Shown in pieces: positions 4,170 through 51,093 of a stretch of DNA of 64,000 nucleotides. The translations under genes and the position numbers were made by a program. Each line of letters opens with the position of its first letter. The first letter of the stretch is position 1. This DNA is from a virus, in the IMG/VR virus record IMGVR_UViG_3300023313_000001, positions 1 to 64,000 of that record; one strand, written 5' to 3'. A model generated the notes under the pieces. It was not told the origin of the DNA and made no database searches. It worked only from the letters and a program-made list of their open reading frames with translations.

Positions 4170-4178
4170 AGGATGGTT

Positions 4179-4631
4179 ATGAGTAAAAATATCGTGTGTA
4201 TGAATTCATATTTATTGCAAGCGTGGATAGATATGATTGAAGATTTTGGATCATCCCCGTTTATTGTAATAAATCCAGATTTATCTGAACGTGAAATGGA
4301 CATACCGGTTGAATATATGCACGAAGGCTTCTTGACATTAAATGTAGCAAATGTTGCAACAGGGTATGTTATTATCGATAAAGAGACAGGATACCTATCA
4401 ATGACGGCAAGATATAATGGATTGGAAAAACAATCATTTGTACCAATAGAATCCATCGTTGTTGTTAGATCTGATTGTGGGGCAATTGCAGTAAACCTTC
4501 CCACACAACTTACCATGTTTGATGATGGGGCACCATTAACGCCATCTATACATAATCCAAAGGACCACCCTGATACCCCACAATCAACTGGTCCGACAAA
4601 ACAACCATTTATCCCAACTATAGTGAAATAA
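4179..4631 (+). CDS. Unknown protein, 150 residues
   Basis: ATG 4179 is preferred over ATG 4173 because the GAGG at 4169-4172 then has normal spacing. The protein is soluble with a Pro/Thr-rich C-terminal tail (about the last 35 residues). It lies in frame with the preceding TAG-ended gene. No family recognised. Confidence 0.6.
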   Translation: MSKNIVCMNSYLLQAWIDMIEDFGSSPFIVINPDLSEREMDIPVEYMHEGFLTLNVANVATGYVIIDKETGYLSMTARYNGLEKQSFVPIESIVVVRSDCGAIAVNLPTQLTMFDDGAPLTPSIHNPKDHPDTPQSTGPTKQPFIPTIVK

Positions 4632-4632
4632 T

Positions 4633-5022
4633 ATGATTGATGATTTAATGAAGTGGAAAGGTCGTAGAATGGTTCTAGCCAGAGATTTGAATGGAGCTGG
4701 AACATTATTTGGTGGAAGAATGTTGGAATGGATAGATGAAGAATCTGCTATATTCACTTCGTGCCAATTAAAAACACCTAGAGTAGTCACTGCCCATATG
4801 AGTGAAATTAATTTTGTATCACCTGCTTTTCAAGGTGAGATTGTAGAGATTGGATGCGAAGTAATTAAATTTGGCAAATCATCGCTCACCCTGAAATGTT
4901 ATGCCAGAAACAAACAAACACGAGCAACCATTGTTACTGTAGATAAAATGGTATTCGTTAGTGTAAATGAGCTGGGACAATCAGTTCCTCATGGAATTAG
5001 TCAACATCGAGTTTCTACATAA
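4633..5022 (+). CDS. Acyl-CoA thioesterase, YciA-like hotdog fold
   Basis: This 129-residue protein matches the acyl-CoA thioesterase branch of the hotdog superfamily: LARDLNGAGTLFGGRMLEWID near the N-terminus holds the catalytic-region Asn/Gly and the WID helix, and an HMSEINFVSP strand follows. Such enzymes hydrolyse acyl-CoA to free fatty acid and CoA in the cytoplasm. In a phage this is an auxiliary metabolic gene that could alter membrane lipids. It is followed by the membrane-channel gene. The Shine-Dalgarno is weak. Confidence 0.8.
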   Translation: MIDDLMKWKGRRMVLARDLNGAGTLFGGRMLEWIDEESAIFTSCQLKTPRVVTAHMSEINFVSPAFQGEIVEIGCEVIKFGKSSLTLKCYARNKQTRATIVTVDKMVFVSVNELGQSVPHGISQHRVST

Positions 5023-5094
5023 CCGCTAGGTACAAGTTGCATTCCCTTGCTGGATTGAGTATAGTTAATTTTTGTAACATAGAAGGTTCACCTA

Positions 5095-6117
5095 ATGCGA
5101 TGCTTGACCCTAATCTTATTATTGATATCCATAAATGGCTGGTCCAGTGAAAAGTTGATCGTGGGGGTAACAGAAACAGCTCCCTTTGCAATGTTAAATC
5201 CCACAAATCAATGGACTGGAGTTTCCATTGATTTGTGGGAGAGTATAGCAAAAGATCTAGGAGTGGAATATCAATATGTTAGTATCCCCTTACCCAATAT
5301 ATTGACAGATCTGGAAGCTGGCAACATTGACCTAGCGGTAGGGGCAATTTCAATTACATCTGATAGAGAGTCTATACTGGATTTCTCTCACGCCTATTTT
5401 AATTCAGGGTTGGGTATCGTTACTAAAGCAACACATTCGATAACAATGTTAGACATTATTACTAACCCTAAATTTATTACATCAGTAGGGTTGTTACTTG
5501 GATTTGTTTTTTTGGGCGGGATACTTATCTTAATATTCGAGAACGGACCAGATGATAAAGACTTCAGACAGAACGACATCAGTAATGGAGTTTGGTGGTC
5601 TATTACTACAATAACTACCACAGGATATGGTGACCTCGTTCCAAAAACAAATTTAGGAAGGTTGTTTGGTGGTGTGTGGATGGTAATAGGAGCAATAATA
5701 GCTCCTATGTTAATCGGTAGTATGTCTGCTAATCTAACCCTGGATTACCAGACCAGTGTAATTGAAGATCGGAGTGATCTTTCCCATCATGCTATCGGAG
5801 TGATCTCGGGAACATCGTCTGAGATATATTTTCAAAAACACAATTTACCATACACCAAAGTAACTGATGTGAAAGCTATGATGGTATTAATTCAGCAAGA
5901 TAAGTTGGATGGGGGGGTATATGATGCTCCAATCCTCCAATATTTTTCAAAACGATACCAAAACTTAGTTGTCCTGCCTACAATATTCGATAGGCAGAGT
6001 TATGGTATTGTGGTTCAGAACGGAAGTGATTTGAGAGAATTAATCAATGCGTCTCTTTTAACCCACATCCATACACAAACTTGGTTAGATAATCTCAACC
6101 AATATTTAGGAGAGTAA
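5095..6117 (+). CDS. Ionotropic glutamate receptor-type ligand-gated K+ channel (GluR0-like)
   Basis: The architecture is plain: a signal peptide (residues 1-17), the first half of a periplasmic binding domain (about 18-112, with the TSDRESILDFS ligand-site motif), a membrane helix (about 128-148), a pore loop with the K+ selectivity filter TTTGYGD (174-180), a second membrane helix (about 189-211), then the second half of the binding domain to residue 340. This is the fold of prokaryotic glutamate receptors such as GluR0, where an amino acid opens a K+ pore. The order binding lobe, pore, binding lobe is intact, so it should be functional. It heads a run of envelope-stress genes with a 2-base gap to the next. 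A phage copy is unusual. Confidence 0.85.
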   Translation: MRCLTLILLLISINGWSSEKLIVGVTETAPFAMLNPTNQWTGVSIDLWESIAKDLGVEYQYVSIPLPNILTDLEAGNIDLAVGAISITSDRESILDFSHAYFNSGLGIVTKATHSITMLDIITNPKFITSVGLLLGFVFLGGILILIFENGPDDKDFRQNDISNGVWWSITTITTTGYGDLVPKTNLGRLFGGVWMVIGAIIAPMLIGSMSANLTLDYQTSVIEDRSDLSHHAIGVISGTSSEIYFQKHNLPYTKVTDVKAMMVLIQQDKLDGGVYDAPILQYFSKRYQNLVVLPTIFDRQSYGIVVQNGSDLRELINASLLTHIHTQTWLDNLNQYLGE

Positions 6118-6119
6118 TA

Positions 6120-7715
6120 ATGTTCAAGAAAATTGTAATTATACTTACCGCTGCCATATTCACTATCATGTTAGTATCGGAAGCAGATGCTAGACGTGGA
6201 GGGTTCAGAAGTAGTGGTTTTAAATCTAGGTCATACAGTAAACCTAAACCTGTAAGAACACACAGGACATCTGCTCGTAGTAAAAAGCCTACTGGTCGTA
6301 AACAAGTTAGTAAACGAACATACACCAAACCTAAGCCCAAGTTTGGAGCTAATGTAAAAACTAAACAACGTGTAGCAAAATCACGATCCGCGTATAAGCA
6401 ACAACAATCTGCGTTCAAGGCCAAACCTAAACCGACTACATATAGAAATAATAACGGAAAGACTGTGACTGTTCCACGCAAGAAATACACTACAAACTCT
6501 AATCCGATAATTAATCGCACCACGACGATTAATCGCACCACGTACATAAATCGAAGAAGTAGTTATTATGGAAATTGGTCAACTCCACCATATGCGTATC
6601 ACGGGTATTCCAGTTACGGAATGTGGGATAGTTTAGCCTTATGGTATATGCTTTCACATATTAACGATCACAGATATAGCCGTATGTATTACCATCAACA
6701 AAATACTCCTGGAATGGCAGCTTGGAGACTTGAAGCTGAAAAGCAGGCCCATACAAACGCTGAGTTACGATCCCAATTAGCACAATTAGATTCCAGTGTA
6801 ACCAATCTTAAACAGCAAAATGTCCCAGTAGATCCTAGTTACATTCCGGATGGAGTTGATGCTGACATATTATTGTCAGCAGAAGTGTTAGCTGATACTA
6901 AACCGTCTATTAAAGTATGTACAGGACCAGCGGATAAAAACTATTACCATGTCGCTAAGCTTATCGGTAAACATTCGGATGCATTTAATATAGTTCCTAT
7001 TGTTACTGCTGGGTCAGAAGAGAATCTTGTTAACATTGAGACTGGTAAATGTGATGCAGCTCTAGTTCAACGTGATGCATATTGGAATCATACTGACGGT
7101 AATCCCACCAGCACGCTAGATTTTGAGCGAATCATGTCTCCATATGCTGAAGTAGTCCATTTAGTTTGTAACGAGTCTAGCGGAGTAGAGACGTTGTCAG
7201 ACTTATCGTCTGATACCACTGTGTTAATTGGAGCTCCTGGTTCTGGTAGTCAAGTTACTTGGAGTAATATGGTCACGGAAAATAGGGCATATGCTTCAGT
7301 GAAAGTTGCTAATATTGGTGGCGCGTTAGCTAAAACTAGAGTGTCATCTGGACAAGCAGATTGTTTACTAACTGTGTCAGGATTGAACACGAAATTCATG
7401 AGAGAAGTTAATAGTCTAGGTGGTACCAAAACCTTGAATTTGGTAGAGTGGAATGATTCTAGTATTATGTCTAGTGTTGATCCAGCTGGTGAACCGGTAT
7501 ATTCAACATACACCTTGTCAGATGATGTGTATAATAATCTCCAACACGATAATTGGATTGGATATTTTAACGTGGACAACGATGCTATTACTGTCCCTGC
7601 AGATATTATTGTCAATAATTCCTGGATTAAAGCGAATAAAACTACGTTTAATTCGTTAGTATCAGCAACTACTCAAAGTCTTTCGGACATTCAGCAGTAC
7701 GTAGGAACAAAGTAA
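6120..7715 (+). CDS. Secreted TAXI/TRAP-type solute-binding protein with basic N-terminal region
   Basis: A signal peptide ends near residue 24 (SEADA). A strongly basic Ser/Arg/Lys/Pro region follows to about residue 135, then a Tyr-rich stretch, a short coiled coil (about 200-235) and a C-terminal domain from about 265. That domain resembles TAXI-family receptors (VCTGPADKNYYHVAKLI, LIGAPGSGSQVTW). It would lie in the periplasm. It starts 2 bases after the channel gene and overlaps the DUF2491 gene by one base. A shared sensing role with the channel is inference. The basic region could bind the cell surface or peptidoglycan. Confidence 0.65.
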   Translation: MFKKIVIILTAAIFTIMLVSEADARRGGFRSSGFKSRSYSKPKPVRTHRTSARSKKPTGRKQVSKRTYTKPKPKFGANVKTKQRVAKSRSAYKQQQSAFKAKPKPTTYRNNNGKTVTVPRKKYTTNSNPIINRTTTINRTTYINRRSSYYGNWSTPPYAYHGYSSYGMWDSLALWYMLSHINDHRYSRMYYHQQNTPGMAAWRLEAEKQAHTNAELRSQLAQLDSSVTNLKQQNVPVDPSYIPDGVDADILLSAEVLADTKPSIKVCTGPADKNYYHVAKLIGKHSDAFNIVPIVTAGSEENLVNIETGKCDAALVQRDAYWNHTDGNPTSTLDFERIMSPYAEVVHLVCNESSGVETLSDLSSDTTVLIGAPGSGSQVTWSNMVTENRAYASVKVANIGGALAKTRVSSGQADCLLTVSGLNTKFMREVNSLGGTKTLNLVEWNDSSIMSSVDPAGEPVYSTYTLSDDVYNNLQHDNWIGYFNVDNDAITVPADIIVNNSWIKANKTTFNSLVSATTQSLSDIQQYVGTK

Positions 7716-8380
7716 TGGCGATTATGAAAACGATTGCTGGATTTTTTTCTGCTCGATCAAATGATGATCCTATTAAAAAATACAGCTCACTGCACGTTCG
7801 TACGAATAGTTTAATCACGTTAGATGTTACTCCGTTTTTGATCCATGATGAATATCTCGTTATGGAAAATCCAGGATCGGGACACCAAGTAACTCATATC
7901 GGGGAGCATGTACTGCACGGAATGAACGTTTTCAAGTTTTATATTAAATCTGATATCGGGAATGATAATTCATGTATTCAAGTGACAGAATGTGATGGGG
8001 AAGCTGATGCTATATTATTTCGTCAGATTGACGAAATATACCCTCAATCAATCTCAGATTGGAATGACTGGACTGGTACAGATCAAGTTGATGGGTTGCT
8101 GCAGTGGGAAGTATTTACCTTAAAAAATGATAACGATGAAGTGGTATATAGTCGTGCTTGGGAATCTGACTTAGTAAATTGCGTTGAAAAAATTGTACCA
8201 GATGATGCTACAGAGTCCCCATACAGCTTTGCTAGTAAGATGATGTTGTACCAACGTGATATATCTGAAAAAGGAAGCGAACCGTTTACGGAATACTTAA
8301 TGGTATCTATAGAGGAAGAAGAACGAGTTTGTATATATGTGGGGATCGATTTGCCCATGTCAGGTTTAATAATTTCATAA
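7715..8380 (+). CDS. DUF2491 (YjfK-like) protein
   Basis: The 221-residue protein resembles the DUF2491 family: the LVMENPGSGHQVTHIGE segment, a central FLQV-type beta core and the C-terminal EYLMVSIEEEE region. In enterobacteria yjfK lies beside yjfJ, a PspA relative. Here too the next gene is PspA-like, which supports the call. The molecular role is unknown, but an envelope-stress link is likely from this pairing. Confidence 0.6.
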   Translation: MAIMKTIAGFFSARSNDDPIKKYSSLHVRTNSLITLDVTPFLIHDEYLVMENPGSGHQVTHIGEHVLHGMNVFKFYIKSDIGNDNSCIQVTECDGEADAILFRQIDEIYPQSISDWNDWTGTDQVDGLLQWEVFTLKNDNDEVVYSRAWESDLVNCVEKIVPDDATESPYSFASKMMLYQRDISEKGSEPFTEYLMVSIEEEERVCIYVGIDLPMSGLIIS

Positions 8381-8393
8381 AGAGGAATATAAT

Positions 8394-9149
8394 ATGAGTT
8401 TTTGGAACACACTTAAAAATTTAACAACAGTTAAAACCGAACAAGCAGGTGATGGATTAATCAACGCGTTAGCTAAATTTGATCCTGAGGGTATGTCAGA
8501 AGCTGGAATGCGTCAGTTAGAAGAAAATGTGGATAGCATGGCTTCTGAATGTGCTGTGGCTAAGCAAGAATGGTTGAAAGAGCAGCAAGAGTATGATTCT
8601 ATACAGAAACTGTTCGACCAACGTATTGCCGCCGCAGATATATTATCTACTAAGATTAGTGCAGGAGATACGTCTGTGGAGCCTAGTCTTAACACATTGG
8701 TTCAGTTGATTGAGGATATGACTCCTGAAATTGAGAGAGAACATGAAGAAGCCGTCTACGCTAAAGAAATTTTTCACGAGTTAGAGTTAGCTACTAAAGA
8801 TGCTGCAACTCAAGTTAAAACAGCTAGAGCTGAATTCGATAAAATTAGACGAGACCTTAAACGAGCTTCAGTACAAACCGATAGAGCCAAGCGGGACGAG
8901 GAACGATCCAAAAGAGTTGCTGGAATCCGTAAGGGAGGTTCAAGTTTGGGATCTGCGATGGACGCTATGAAAAATGCAGCTGCAGAACAAACAGCCGCAG
9001 CTGATGCAGCTAAAATGAAAGCAGATTTGTTTAGACAATCTACTCCAGAAAAAGATGACCCTAATATTGCGGCCGCCCTGGTGGCATCTTCAGGGGTGGC
9101 TACATCTACGATGACAGTGTCAGAACGGTTGGCCGCGTTAAAGAAGTAA
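8394..9149 (+). CDS. PspA/IM30-family protein (YjfJ-like)
   Basis: A 251-residue, almost wholly helical coiled-coil protein with the PspA layout: an N-terminal amphipathic start (SFWNTLKNLTTVKTEQ), long heptad helices to about residue 190, then an Ala-rich tail. PspA proteins polymerise on the inner membrane and seal leaks. It has a good Shine-Dalgarno (AGAGGAA) 14 bases after the DUF2491 gene. A terminator follows, so channel, binding protein, DUF2491 and PspA form one unit. I infer protection or tuning of the membrane during infection. Confidence 0.75.
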   Translation: MSFWNTLKNLTTVKTEQAGDGLINALAKFDPEGMSEAGMRQLEENVDSMASECAVAKQEWLKEQQEYDSIQKLFDQRIAAADILSTKISAGDTSVEPSLNTLVQLIEDMTPEIEREHEEAVYAKEIFHELELATKDAATQVKTARAEFDKIRRDLKRASVQTDRAKRDEERSKRVAGIRKGGSSLGSAMDAMKNAAAEQTAAADAAKMKADLFRQSTPEKDDPNIAAALVASSGVATSTMTVSERLAALKK

Positions 9150-9190
9150 CATATTGCACCGTTGATACCAACACCTCAATGTACTATGAT

Positions 9191-9215
9191 AAGGGCCTTA
9201 AATGGTCCTTTTTTT
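9191..9215 (+). terminator. Intrinsic terminator after the PspA-like gene
   Basis: A 7-bp stem (9191-9197 with 9204-9210, one G-T pair) with a 6-base loop is followed by five more T. Confidence 0.75.
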
Positions 9216-9232
9216 ATGGTGAACTAATTCAC

Positions 9233-9544
9233 ATGAACAACACAATAGAAAGACATTTTAACAACGGATCCATAAATGGAACGATATCAGTAACTATGCG
9301 TGCTGGTATAGCTAAAGCTGTAGTGGATTTCTATGAGGATGATCAATATTGGGGGACCAAGTATTGGATCATTCCATCATATAAAACCCGTAGAGTTCAT
9401 CGTATACTATCAGGAACAAGCGCTAATTGGGTCAGCCTGATTGACAATACAGAGATGTATGATTTAGATCCAAGTACATTGGTATTTTTAGATGCTGCGT
9501 ACGCAGAGTGCCTGTATGAGCTCTTGGGTGGATATAATATATGA
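9233..9544 (+). CDS. Unknown protein, 103 residues
   Basis: The start at 9233 (MNNTIERHF) is chosen because the longer reading would run through the terminator hairpin. The protein is soluble with no recognised motif. It overlaps the following gene by four bases. Confidence 0.55.
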   Translation: MNNTIERHFNNGSINGTISVTMRAGIAKAVVDFYEDDQYWGTKYWIIPSYKTRRVHRILSGTSANWVSLIDNTEMYDLDPSTLVFLDAAYAECLYELLGGYNI

Positions 9545-9888
9545 CACAACCATTAGTCACTACAGTAGTTAAGTATGGAATTACCTATTCTATTATGATT
9601 AATCCATCAGACGACAAATATTATGTCTGTTGTGAAGTACCGGACACCAAGTGGATTATGTTGAAGATCTTGGGACTCCCATTAATTCCATGGAAGAAGT
9701 CATATTATCGAGAAGTATATATGGTTGGTGAAGGGACAGAATGGAGTGCATCAGATCATTGGGATCCAAGTAAGTGCACGTCACGTTATAGATTACAGAT
9801 GTCAACTGATGACATCACTATCATACTTACATTACAGAGTCTCACTATCACTCATGCTGCCAACGTATTGAACGAGGTTATATTATGA
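9541..9888 (+). CDS. Unknown protein, 115 residues
   Basis: It is coupled by 4-base overlaps to the genes on both sides. It has aromatic-rich beta-type sequence and no known motif. Its position directly before the NADAR gene is the only hint at a role. Confidence 0.55.
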   Translation: MTQPLVTTVVKYGITYSIMINPSDDKYYVCCEVPDTKWIMLKILGLPLIPWKKSYYREVYMVGEGTEWSASDHWDPSKCTSRYRLQMSTDDITIILTLQSLTITHAANVLNEVIL

Positions 9889-10349
9889 ATATTGGAAGTG
9901 GTTCAGGGTACCCTGCTGGCAACTTATCTAACTTTACACCCCATCCATTCGTACTGGATGGGGTTGAATGCAATTCAATGGAAGGGTTTCTGCAATCTTT
10001 AAAATTTAAAGACCCTGAAATGCAGAAGCATGTCTGTAAACTAACAGGTCGAATCGCTAAAAATAAAGGTTCAAAAAAGAAATGGTATAAAACTCAAACA
10101 CTCCATTGGAGAGGGATTGAGTATCCTAGGGATAGTAAGGAGTACCAAGATTTATTAGATCGAGCTTATCTGGCATTATCTACAAACCTAAAATTTCGTA
10201 AAGCCTTATTAGCTAGCCAACATTCAGTCCTGAAACATACCATTGGACGATCTAAATCCAATATGACAGTTTTGACTGTAAGAGAATTTTGTAGTAGACT
10301 GACGCATCTTAGAACTGAGATGCAGAATGAACAATTGATGGAGATGTAA
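9885..10349 (+). CDS. NADAR-domain protein (YbiA-like)
   Basis: The N-terminal half carries NADAR hallmarks: YPAGNLSNFTPHPFVLDG followed by the CNSMEGFLQSLKF segment, where Glu and the following helix form the active site. The family is tied to NAD and ADP-ribose chemistry, and some members remove ADP-ribose from guanine in DNA, acting as antitoxins to DarT-like enzymes. A counter-defence role in the phage is inference. Length (154 residues) is normal. It overlaps the upstream gene by four bases. Confidence 0.75.
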   Translation: MNIGSGSGYPAGNLSNFTPHPFVLDGVECNSMEGFLQSLKFKDPEMQKHVCKLTGRIAKNKGSKKKWYKTQTLHWRGIEYPRDSKEYQDLLDRAYLALSTNLKFRKALLASQHSVLKHTIGRSKSNMTVLTVREFCSRLTHLRTEMQNEQLMEM

Positions 10350-10351
10350 AG

Positions 10352-10807
10352 ATGAAGAACAACTTTGTAGTTGGAATCCTATTATTGGTTCCAATGTATA
10401 CTGTGTCAGCAAATGAAACTAACAAATACTTTGGTGATCGTAGTTGGCAGTGGAACAGTCCTAATGATAACGCAGTAAAGAATCAACAATTGATGATCCG
10501 GTGTGCTGCAAAGCCTCAATCCTGTGCTGGGTTGAATAAACCAAATAGGTCTGGTGGAGGTAATAGTGGAGGGTTAGGACTCGGTTTTGGATTGGCTAGT
10601 GGTCAAAATATTGGCAACGTCGTTAATGTAATTGTCACTGGAGATAACAATGTTGTTACTATTGCTGGTGACCAAACAAATAATGGCGATCAAGCAGTCG
10701 ATATTAACGTCAATGACAATAATATCGATGTGGTTGTAGATGACCATTCCCAAATAATTAATGGGGATGTCACCCCCGCTGTTGAACCATCAGATCCACC
10801 AATGTAA
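10352..10807 (+). CDS. Secreted Gly/Asn-rich protein, possible fibre subunit
   Basis: A signal peptide (residues 1-20, ending TVSA) precedes a mature part with a Gly-rich segment, then a Val/Asn/Asp-rich stretch (NVVNVIVTGDNNVVTIAG) with the alternating pattern seen in curlin-like beta-solenoid repeats. It lies 12 bases upstream of the CsgG-like gene, so I infer it may be a secreted substrate. No direct curlin consensus is present. Confidence 0.5.
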   Translation: MKNNFVVGILLLVPMYTVSANETNKYFGDRSWQWNSPNDNAVKNQQLMIRCAAKPQSCAGLNKPNRSGGGNSGGLGLGFGLASGQNIGNVVNVIVTGDNNVVTIAGDQTNNGDQAVDINVNDNNIDVVVDDHSQIINGDVTPAVEPSDPPM

Positions 10808-10819
10808 ATAAGGATTAAC

Positions 10820-12136
10820 ATGAAACATATTAGAACTATCCTAGCTATAATTTGTACCATAGCTGTCGTAGGATGTAGTAGTTTTGGTACAATTCACCAT
10901 GGTAAAAATGGATACAGTATAATTAACGGACCGAAGGTTACCCGTAATAATACTCCAGCTACTGTGGGACTAATGTGTGTTGGTAATACCATCAACAATG
11001 CATATCCTGGGAAAAAACGTATTAGAGTATCTATAGGCTCCATCCCAGATTTGACTGGCAAATTTTCAAATAACGACGCAGGGTATAAAGTTACTCAAGG
11101 TGCTGCACTCATGGCCTATTCCGCTCTCCAGAAAATGAAAGCAGTTCAAGTCGTTGAGCGGGCAGACACCAACATATTCCAATTTGAAACTACCTTAGCT
11201 AACCAGCGAATGTTAGGGGATCGAGTTAACTACCGTCTTCCCAATGGCCAGACAATAAACTACAGACCTATATTGAGTGGGAAGGTACTAGGCTCTGCAT
11301 ATTATGTTACTGGAGGCATTACAGAAATTAATTATAATATCTACAGCGGAGGTGGAGAACTAGATGTAGCTTGGTTTGGAGGATCACGTAGGTATGTAAT
11401 GAATATAGCCATGGATCTACGGTTAGTTAATTCTCAAACGTTGGAAGTTGTTTCTGCTCTGACTTTACAAAAGCAAATTATCGGATATGAAACCAAATTA
11501 GGGGTTTTCAAGTTCTTTGGATCTGAGTTAGTAGATCTCAACATAGGAGAAAAGAATGATGAGCCTGTGCAGCTTGGGGTGCGAACTATAATCGAACAGG
11601 GTGTGGCTGAATTGATCGGATCATTGTATAAAATAGATACTGAAAAGTTATTTGACGGATTAGAGGACAAAGGACTATTTGGAAATCAATGGATTACAGA
11701 CCCTAGAACTGTAGCAAATGCATTTTGTCCTAGAATGGACGTGGTCCATGATACTCCTACCTACCCAACACGTAACCACAATCCAGTTAAAAAATCAGGA
11801 TATGTTGGGTCGTGTACCAATTTAAAAACCAAATGTCAATTATGTAACTTGAAAAACCTAGCCAAACAACCATCCAAAAAACGCCCTGGAATATATGTTC
11901 AAATGGCATCTTTTCAAAAACCTGAAGGTTGTTTGAATGAATGGGCTTGTTTAGAAAGTAAACATGGTGATTTATTTAAAAATCAAAATTACACAATAGA
12001 TAGAACATTATCATCCACCGGACGAATTTGGCACGGGTTACTAGTGGGTCCATTTGCTAGCAACAAGAAAGCCAATCAATTTTGCTCTACCAGCAAAAAA
12101 CGTGGGTTAAACTGCTACGTTCGCAATATCAAATAA
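10820..12136 (+). CDS. CsgG/HfaB-like outer-membrane secretion lipoprotein with C-terminal SPOR domain
   Basis: The signal peptide ends in a lipobox (VVGC, Cys at about residue 19), so the mature protein is a lipoprotein. Residues of about 45-300 resemble CsgG/HfaB, the oligomeric pore that exports curli or holdfast anchor subunits. Residues of about 355-438 look like a SPOR domain (PGIYVQMASFQ, LLVGPFASNKKA), which binds denuded peptidoglycan at division sites. CsgG itself lacks SPOR, so this is a fusion. Secreted, repeat-rich proteins are encoded on both sides, as in curli and holdfast operons. Role in infection unknown. Confidence 0.7.
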   Translation: MKHIRTILAIICTIAVVGCSSFGTIHHGKNGYSIINGPKVTRNNTPATVGLMCVGNTINNAYPGKKRIRVSIGSIPDLTGKFSNNDAGYKVTQGAALMAYSALQKMKAVQVVERADTNIFQFETTLANQRMLGDRVNYRLPNGQTINYRPILSGKVLGSAYYVTGGITEINYNIYSGGGELDVAWFGGSRRYVMNIAMDLRLVNSQTLEVVSALTLQKQIIGYETKLGVFKFFGSELVDLNIGEKNDEPVQLGVRTIIEQGVAELIGSLYKIDTEKLFDGLEDKGLFGNQWITDPRTVANAFCPRMDVVHDTPTYPTRNHNPVKKSGYVGSCTNLKTKCQLCNLKNLAKQPSKKRPGIYVQMASFQKPEGCLNEWACLESKHGDLFKNQNYTIDRTLSSTGRIWHGLLVGPFASNKKANQFCSTSKKRGLNCYVRNIK

Positions 12137-12158
12137 CTTAACTAAAAGGAAACACCCT

Positions 12159-12947
12159 ATGAAAAATCTAGCAATTATATCATTACTAATCTCAACTACA
12201 GCGTTAGCTGATACTCCAAATTTAACGGTTGTCGGCGACTATACTGTCAATTACGATACGACAGTTGATATAACTGAACTGAACGCAGATGTCCTCAATA
12301 GTCAGTTCAATCATGCCAGCGCTCAATCTGCATTAATCAACGTAACACATAACAGAACTCTCGGTAATGTAGATTTAAACGCTACAGCAATTGGGAATAC
12401 AGCAACTGTATCATTGACATCTGTGGACACTGTAACCAATGTTCAGGGCAATCAAGAAGGTGGACAAACAGCATCTACTAATTTCACGTATAATAGATTA
12501 CCCAACTCAGAACTAGTTATCAATACTACTGCAGTTGGAAATAATTTTTCAATTGATACTACAGACGGTGACCTATCAATGCAAAATGTCCAGTTCAATT
12601 ATGACTCTCCAATATCGTCTGCAATTAATGTGACCAATAATAGATTCAGTGGTGGATGGGATCCTGTATTGAATGCGACTGCTATTGGCAGCAATGCTTC
12701 CGTTATCGCATCTGGTGATATTAATGTGTCTAACTTACAAGTGAATATTAACTCTCCAATGTCCTCTTCCGTTAACTTTAGCTATAATACTGGAGCTATT
12801 GGTCCATTGTCGATAAACGCTCAAACTATTGGCAACAGTTTGAACATCAGCAATCCATTAAATACCGATAATTCTGGAAACAATGATAATTCTGGAAACA
12901 ATGATACTTCTGGAAACAATGATAATTCTGAAGATGGTGGTAGTTAG
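12159..12947 (+). CDS. Secreted repeat adhesin-like protein (HfaD/curlin-like)
   Basis: A signal peptide (residues 1-17, ending ALA) precedes four or five imperfect repeats with the core NATAIGNTATVS or NTTAVGNNFSI, joined by N-rich strands. The tail is a short tandem DNSGNN repeat, encoded at about 12868-12930. The pattern suggests a secreted beta-rich fibre or adhesin, probably exported through the CsgG-like protein encoded just before it. It ends TAG TAA. Confidence 0.55.
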   Translation: MKNLAIISLLISTTALADTPNLTVVGDYTVNYDTTVDITELNADVLNSQFNHASAQSALINVTHNRTLGNVDLNATAIGNTATVSLTSVDTVTNVQGNQEGGQTASTNFTYNRLPNSELVINTTAVGNNFSIDTTDGDLSMQNVQFNYDSPISSAINVTNNRFSGGWDPVLNATAIGSNASVIASGDINVSNLQVNINSPMSSSVNFSYNTGAIGPLSINAQTIGNSLNISNPLNTDNSGNNDNSGNNDTSGNNDNSEDGGS

Positions 12948-50579: not shown

Positions 50580-50705
50580 ATGGATATGATTTATTTAATT
50601 TTAGGAATTTTTATTGGAACGTCTTACCCATTTGTATGGGGATTGATTAAGGGTGGTTTTACTAAATTAGTGAATCTTGTTAAAAAAGATACTGGTAGTA
50701 AGTAA
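50580..50705 (+). CDS. Small membrane protein, 41 residues
   Basis: ATG 50580 with TTAGGAG at 50568-50574. One hydrophobic helix (about residues 3-22) and a basic C-terminal tail. Late promoter upstream. Could be a holin-like or regulatory peptide, but no match is known to me. Confidence 0.55.
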   Translation: MDMIYLILGIFIGTSYPFVWGLIKGGFTKLVNLVKKDTGSK

Positions 50706-50719
50706 CTAACCAAAATATT

Positions 50720-50777
50720 CGTTGAAAGTTATTGGATGGTCTGCAAGACATGGGTTCGAATCCCATCACCTCCACCA
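50720..50777 (+). ncRNA. ssrA: tmRNA acceptor piece (permuted ssrA)
   Basis: A tRNA 3' half without a local 5' half: T arm ATGGG/CCCAT with loop TTCGAAT (50750-50766), acceptor strand CACCTCC (50767-50773), A73, CCA (50775-50777). Its partner GGGGGTG is the start of the coding piece at 50814. AGTTATT near 50728-50734 can pair with GGTAACT near 50845 as helix P2. The 5' end is approximate. Confidence 0.85.
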
Positions 50778-50813
50778 AATTCTGCTCAACTCCACCTATG
50801 TGTTTTAATATTT

Positions 50814-50975
50814 GGGGGTGAATTGGTATCGATTGGGATAATAAGGTAACTGGAGAATTGTGTAGATTCACATAAAAAATCAAATAAACTAACTGCAAAC
50901 GATAATTTTTTTGCTACTGCTATCGCAGCGTAATTGCTCGAACAGCTGGGTGTAACTACCTGGAAACAGAACAGA
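50814..50975 (+). ncRNA. ssrA: tmRNA coding piece (permuted ssrA)
   Basis: Begins GGGGGTGAATTGGTATCGAT, matching the conserved 5' end of tmRNA. The tag reading frame at 50895-50933 is GCA AAC GAT AAT TTT TTT GCT ACT GCT ATC GCA GCG TAA, giving ANDNFFATAIAA, a typical degradation tag with resume codon GCA. The stop is in a GCA/TGC hairpin as in other tmRNAs. Acceptor and coding pieces are in permuted order, so the mature molecule would be two RNAs held by base pairing. Confidence 0.9.
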
Positions 50976-51006
50976 AAAAAGAGAGGCTTTTTGCCTCTCT
51001 TTTTTA
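50975..51006 (+). terminator. Intrinsic terminator after the tmRNA
   Basis: A stem of GAGAGGC with GCCTCTC around TTTTT, flanked by runs of A and T. Confidence 0.95.
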
Positions 51007-51093
51007 TTGTATGGTAGATTGAGTTAGTTTTGTGTTGTATACTCTACAATTACACAACATATATAATTACATCTAACAACAAGGAAACAACAA

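Follow-up and report, generated by a model that had tools for sequence, protein, structure and literature searches.

We conclude that a four-gene unit in a phage genome (IMG/VR virus record IMGVR_UViG_3300023313_000001, 229,507 bases) is, on a slight balance of probability, a phage's version of a bacterial envelope-maintenance cassette, with a GluR0-type receptor channel in the channel slot. The unit lies at 5095-9149 of the stretch analyzed here (the window), which comprises positions 1 to 64,000 of the record (64,000 nucleotides). It encodes, in order, a glutamate-receptor-type channel, a secreted protein with a TAXI-type solute-binding domain, a DUF2491 protein and a PspA-like protein (Table 1). 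An earlier reading of the DNA made from its letters alone (the original prediction) had described these genes as a transferred envelope module. We find that genes 2, 3 and 4 occur in the same order in bacterial cassettes, and that other viral contigs hold comparable sets of a channel and a PspA-family protein.

The four reading frames are intact and on one strand, gene 2 being a single frame at 6120-7715. Gene 2 begins 2 bases beyond gene 1, genes 2 and 3 overlap by 1 base (TAATG), and 13 bases separate genes 3 and 4; AGGAG/GAGG-like ribosome sites stand ahead of genes 2, 3 and 4. A hairpin with a T run follows 41 bases beyond the gene 4 stop, just within a mechanically called frame listed from 9179. 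The single transcription unit that had been predicted is supported, with a terminator-like hairpin at its end, with junctions as given for the first two (2 and 1 bases) and a correction of the third from 14 to 13. The record is a real phage, given its terminase matches (at 180799-181353 of the record and elsewhere), a gp30.3 gene 3' of the unit (Pfam; window 9885-10349) and the closeness in GC content of unit (39.3%) and phage genome (38.5%). A contaminant or chimeric contig was rejected because GC content and neighboring genes match a phage. When the first 25 kb were compared with known phages for near-identical sequence, no match was obtained. It is very improbable that the genes are passengers, i.e., a functionless, recently acquired bacterial cassette or a product of chimeric assembly. 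The lack of a close copy in other phages would fit such an origin, but the frames are intact and tightly joined, their GC content equals that of the phage, phage genes flank both sides, identity to the nearest bacterial proteins is only ~25 to 45%, and comparable sets exist in other viral contigs.

Table 1. Features of the four-gene unit and its 3' end, in window coordinates
Feature	Position	Strand	Basis
Gene 1: GluR0-type ligand-gated channel, 340 aa	5095-6117	+	Pfam, PDB matches, alignments, AlphaFold2 and Foldseek, hydropathy
Gene 2, residues ~1-252: Nscaf domain	6120-6875	+	Match to N-terminal extension of bacterial DUF2491 proteins
Gene 2, residues ~260-531: TAXI-type solute-binding domain	6900-7715	+	Pfam, NCBIfam, PDB, alignment
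Gene 3: DUF2491 (YjfK family) protein, 221 aa	7715-8380	+	PF10679, alignment, hydropathy
Gene 4: PspA-like long helical-hairpin protein, 251 aa	8394-9149	+	hhalign, AlphaFold2 and Foldseek, bacterial relatives
Terminator-like hairpin and T run	9191-9210	+	End of unit

The channel protein starts with a hydrophobic, signal-like N terminus, followed by lobe S1, a first transmembrane helix (~130-148), the filter, a second helix (~190-208) and lobe S2. The SBP_bac_3 match (3e-25, residues 21-339) spans that to Ion_trans_2 (8e-17, residues 135-211), and an arginine in lobe 1 (R91) and an aspartate in lobe 2 (D277) are invariant in three alignments, of plasmid, chromosomal and phage relatives; the split binding domain is intact, as had been claimed. 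In the GluR0-type family these positions bind the alpha-carboxylate and alpha-amino groups, and the conserved R91 and D277 are expected to hold an amino-acid ligand. Among the PDB entries matched by sequence are binding proteins of ABC transporters, the ligand cores of the Nostoc and Synechocystis GluR0-type proteins and animal AMPA receptors. The AlphaFold model (5 sequences; mean pLDDT, 70) has paired lobes and a pore, and its Foldseek matches are ligand-binding-plus-transmembrane-domain structures of ionotropic glutamate receptors all down the list (E ~1e-19). The filter reads ITTITTTGYGD with GYGD at residues 177-180, which confirms the TTTGYGD given for gene 1 and carries the GYG signature of K+ channels.

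Many plasmid relatives of the channel have no GYG filter. In a group of plasmid-borne GluR0-like proteins (our loci L006, L009 and L123-L128; L126 is a conjugative Salmonella plasmid), the binding domain is kept and the filter is gone. Of 274 genomes sampled from Gammaproteobacteria, the class of the Thiocystis genome, 9 carry GluR0-type channels (E <1e-20; E-values of genome searches are per genome); eight of these were inspected, and all have GYGD. The fetched flanks (at most ~8 kb; two contigs are short) of these eight free-standing bacterial channels hold none of the cassette genes, so pairing with the cassette is not habitual for GluR0 channels. Separately, the predicted fold of a 514-aa protein of Cafeteria roenbergensis virus (BFVD E3T502) matches the phage channel at 2e-20, and by this model match it is possibly an ionotropic-glutamate-receptor-like channel in a giant virus.

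The product of gene 2 had been described as a secreted TAXI-like protein, which fits its second part. There, PF16868 (NMT1_3) matches at 7e-15 (55.9 bits against a cutoff of 27), TIGR02122 (NCBIfam TRAP_TAXI) at 1e-15 (57 bits, below its cutoff of 84) and PDB entry 1us4, "putative GluR0 ligand binding core," at 4e-5. It is not TAXI alone, as the first ~245 residues form a separate conserved domain to which Pfam has no match and which we name Nscaf. It consists of a hydrophobic, signal-like start, a basic Ser/Arg/Lys-rich stretch and a conserved core, YGMWD..LWYML...WR.EAE...L, and it matches the N-terminal extension of DUF2491 proteins from Azospirillum, Bosea, Acetobacteraceae and Chromatiaceae. 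Over its full length, gene 2 aligns with Nscaf-TAXI fusions of Latescibacterota/Gemmatimonadetes at 33% identity. A role as part of a TRAP transporter was rejected, there being no membrane subunit (DctQM) among the neighbors scanned at 4173-12136, the part of the genome that was searched. TAXI proteins are also found in several rhizobial phages, and in Erwinia phage pEa_SNUABM_11 a TAXI-like protein stands alone next to a cluster of tRNA genes (L001, 535-1365).

Gene 3 matches PF10679 at 4.4e-17 (62.4 bits against a curated cutoff of 25), in agreement with the predicted YjfK-like DUF2491 protein; it has no hydrophobic segment by hydropathy and is probably cytoplasmic. A single-protein scan of genome contigs with it gave no match. 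Gene 4 is less straightforward. It had been labeled YjfJ/PspA-like, and kinship with PspA is supported only remotely: hhalign relates it to YjfJ proteins with a probability of 86.8%, and AlphaFold models it as a long helical hairpin. Relatives were found at 67 bacterial loci when genome contigs were searched with a profile, and identity is 27 to 45% to bacterial "hypothetical" proteins that adjoin DUF2491/DUF350. It is probably a distant PspA subfamily; that it is an ordinary YjfJ was rejected for want of a PF04012 match.

The closest counterparts of the unit are in bacteria. At least ten Latescibacterota/Gemmatimonadetes genomes have, in one operon, Nscaf-TAXI, DUF2491 and PspA-like genes and then a channel of the Kv type with six transmembrane helices (L067, whose contig begins within the TAXI gene, L068, L069, L070 [= L101], L097, L098, L099, L100, L102 and L104). 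Nscaf occurs in 13 of 16 genomes of that phylum and in only 2 of 399 sampled genomes of Pseudomonadota, the phylum of the Thiocystis genome. In Alphaproteobacteria (Azospirillum and Acetobacteraceae) and Chromatiaceae it is fused directly to DUF2491, beside DUF350 and a PspA-like gene; at the Azospirillum/Acetobacteraceae loci (including L004, L008, L012 and L017) DUF2491 is joined to a long secreted Nscaf and a membrane helix. Because Nscaf is fused either to DUF2491 or to TAXI, with a PspA-like gene adjoining each time, there is strong evidence that these four components function jointly. In Rhizobium, yjfI-yjfJ and ion channel-yjfK-yjfL-DUF1190-GspS are divergent; DUF350, PspA-like, DUF1190 and GspS genes accompany another channel in Indioceanicola and Aerophototrophica; and Ravi et al. 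2024 (PMC11237479) described a PspA/CesT operon that also includes DUF2491 and a K+ channel. PspA-family genes thus share operons with several types of K+ channel. Since the bacterial cassettes found carry Kv or other channels and not GluR0, the phage unit looks like a bacterial cassette with a swapped channel, and the idea of a transferred bacterial envelope module is supported, genes 2-4 being linked in the same order in bacteria.

The original prediction had suggested a block to superinfection or a delay of lysis as possible uses of the module. The bacterial distribution bears on the first of these, superinfection exclusion, in which the channel or the PspA-like coat would alter the membrane potential or seal the membrane and thereby keep a second phage from injecting its DNA. 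DNA entry of many phages depends on the membrane potential, and the proteins are predicted to be located in the envelope. We regard exclusion as a live rival but an unlikely one, as there was no match to a defense or exclusion family (in searches that did not extend to the PADLOC library) and as, in one phylum of free-living bacteria, almost all genomes carry the same set on the chromosome, pointing to a housekeeping role in stress physiology.

A scan of IMG/VR with the channel alignment found full-length GluR0-type channels in four contigs: L146 (119 kb), L149 (211 kb), L147 (264 kb) and L148 (40 kb). The channel region is identical in L146 and L149. Terminase matches in L146, L147 and L149 back their viral nature; L148 is a fragment without terminase. 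In L146 and L148, which represent two lineages, the run comprises a secreted, Ser/Arg-rich, membrane-anchored protein, a 196-aa protein, a CesT_Tir_1 protein (PF22550; 4e-15 and 2e-13), a PspA-family protein and, last, the channel. The PspA-family protein matches PF04012 at 5e-6 and 2e-7, both slightly below the curated cutoff, and YjfJ by hhalign with 95.6% probability. In L147 a related secreted protein stands directly 5' of the channel, and there is no PspA match. A further contig of 18.6 kb (L160), which has a T4 gp15-type tail sheath stabilizer (myovirus), encodes Nscaf, a 232-aa protein, PspA_IM30 above the cutoff and a Kv channel; the kinship of its Nscaf is weak but real (16.5 bits, the best shuffle reaching 4.7). 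Among the 31 viral K+-channel loci scanned, PspA matches were found only in L146/L149, L148 and L160. Two further homologies were tried and could not be shown: the 196-aa protein as DUF2491 (hhalign, 0.2%; shuffle test) and the secreted protein of L146-L148 as an Nscaf homologue (22 columns covered, no better than shuffles). The phage sets resemble one another in layout; common descent among them is shown only for the GluR0-type channels, for PspA at the family level and, weakly and in L160 only, for Nscaf.

The linkage of these genes in the original prediction therefore recurs in bacteria (genes 2-4), in the published operon and, in comparable form, in viral contigs. As the unit matches bacterial cassettes and other large phages have channel-PspA sets, this suggests that phages carry kits for control of the infected cell's membrane. 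We propose more tentatively, as rather less than an even chance, that several unrelated large phages independently built a module of a K+ channel (often of the glutamate receptor type, opened by extracellular amino acids) and an ESCRT-III-like coat that controls membrane potential and integrity in the infected cell. The joining of a membrane coat with a channel in these sets would also suit counter-defense, in which PspA patches the membrane and the K+ channel resets the potential to offset pore-forming or depolarizing abortive-infection systems. The reference list of PMC11237479 points to PspA as limiting proton leakage. That role, too, is a live rival but seems improbable to us, as there is no direct tie to any defense system and the bacterial cassettes need no phage.

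Several observations weigh against the interpretation of the unit as a bacterial envelope cassette fitted with a K+ channel of the GluR0 type. PF04012 matches neither the virus record nor the gene 4 protein, which is only a remote relative of PspA; its Foldseek ranks 1 to 10 in the PDB are all Vipp1/PspA, yet with E-values of only 0.008 to 0.07. Single-protein searches and alignments A4 and A1 found no close copy of the module in other viral contigs; other phages were reached solely with A10, the alignment of the channel. The matching bacterial cassettes have a Kv channel, and in none of the bacteria found does GluR0 occupy that place. Finally, strict K+ selectivity is uncertain, since the filter (TTTGYGD) has Thr for the Val of TTVGYGD, the form in all its nearest relatives (eight gammaproteobacterial and three phage). 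Pore 1 of TWIK-1 reads TTGYG, and its Thr118 is linked to dynamic selectivity with Na+ entry (PMC5002071); by analogy, a lowered K+ selectivity of the phage channel is possible. The same resemblance means that the channel could be leaky, as would suit host killing or takeover by timed K+ dumping or depolarization, with the PspA-like protein limiting self-damage. We hold this to be quite unlikely, because a complete binding domain with conserved Arg and Asp argues for regulated opening and because bacteria keep the module with channels other than GluR0.

Returning to envelope maintenance, we give a little better than an even chance to a ligand-gated K+ conductance that acts together with ESCRT-III-like membrane patching to maintain the envelope and potential of the infected cell. 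The channel would be an inner-membrane protein whose two binding lobes project into the periplasm. There, an amino acid set free by envelope or osmotic stress (glutamate, glutamine or some other) would close the lobes and open the pore, and the K+ flux, inward or outward, would shift both the turgor and the potential of the membrane. Nscaf-TAXI, the secreted protein, may sense a second ligand or tether the complex, the DUF2491 protein may act at the cytoplasmic face, and the two could connect both sides of the membrane; the PspA-like protein would polymerize on the inner leaflet and stop leaks. The most economical benefit for a jumbo phage would be a host kept sealed and turgid through a long infection, until programmed lysis. 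There is support by analogy: GluR0 of Synechocystis is a K+ channel with both ends outside that serves in volume control and slows shrinkage on KCl upshock (PMC13099474), and the yjfIJKL operon of Escherichia coli is strongly upregulated in heat-evolved strains (PMC12492005).

The unit overlaps partially with known systems. It resembles the third-group (yjf/polyamine) PSP operon of PMC11237479 in that a single operon holds a PspA-family gene (gene 4 only remotely so), DUF2491 and a K+ channel, and an envelope stress role is proposed for both. In contrast to that operon, the phage unit has no CesT/YjfI, DUF350, DUF1190 or glutathionylspermidine-synthase-like ligase (CesT/Tir, DUF350 and the ligase are absent from the scanned neighbors as well), Nscaf-TAXI is extra, and the channel is predicted to be gated by ligand from outside, whereas the published channel senses an intracellular ligand. 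The Latescibacterota/Gemmatimonadetes cassette differs in that its Kv channel is downstream, while the phage channel is upstream. With Synechocystis GluR0 (slr1257) and Nostoc GLR3 the phage channel shares a split SBP_bac_3 domain around a K+-type pore of two transmembrane helices, GYG and the Arg and Asp; it differs in having TTTGYGD rather than TTVGYGD, in being encoded by a phage and in its operon with a PspA-like gene. Gene 4 is modeled as a long helical hairpin, as in the ESCRT-III-like Vipp1/PspA proteins, which are its top-ranked fold matches, but falls in a subfamily of its own, marked by conserved DP and RLA motifs. Phages carry small K+ channels, and such miniature viral channels (Kcv and phage channels of two transmembrane helices) are likewise virus-encoded K+-type pores, but without a ligand-binding domain or a PspA partner.

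A PSP operon with a K+ channel has already been published; what is new is the cassette in a phage, the glutamate-receptor-type channel and the comparable sets in other viral contigs. In the open-access literature we found no report of a ligand-gated channel of the glutamate receptor type in a phage, nor of its pairing with a PspA-family coat. If the proposed function is true, a signal-gated device lets phages manage the membrane potential and the envelope of the cells they infect. The unit also offers a genetic entry to the poorly understood bacterial yjf/DUF2491 stress cassette, of which Nscaf is identified as a common part, and opens to testing the question of why PspA is accompanied by K+ channels of at least three types.

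Among the neighbors of the unit are the gp30.3 protein and, at 4173-5022, immediately 5' of the channel gene, an SspB-like adaptor (phrog_8945) and a thioesterase-superfamily (hotdog, 4HBT) protein. The phage also has a tmRNA gene (50682-51024), so that it combines tmRNA with an SspB-like protein. At 640-717 ARAGORN predicts an amber-reading tRNA (anticodon CTA); TAG is the stop of 43 of the 232 nonoverlapping frames of at least 100 aa in the genome, and general recoding of TAG is not evident. The region immediately 3' of the unit (10352-12947) holds a possible phage-borne curli-like export set: a CsgG-like secretion protein that has a SPOR domain (PF03783; 4e-20) is flanked by two secreted Asn-rich proteins, which have curlin-like repeats by eye and no Pfam match. 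Matches to the terminase large subunit fall in separate pieces, at 179132-181353 of the record and at 55607-56179 of the window, which may represent a gene interrupted by an intron or intein plus a second, related ATPase.

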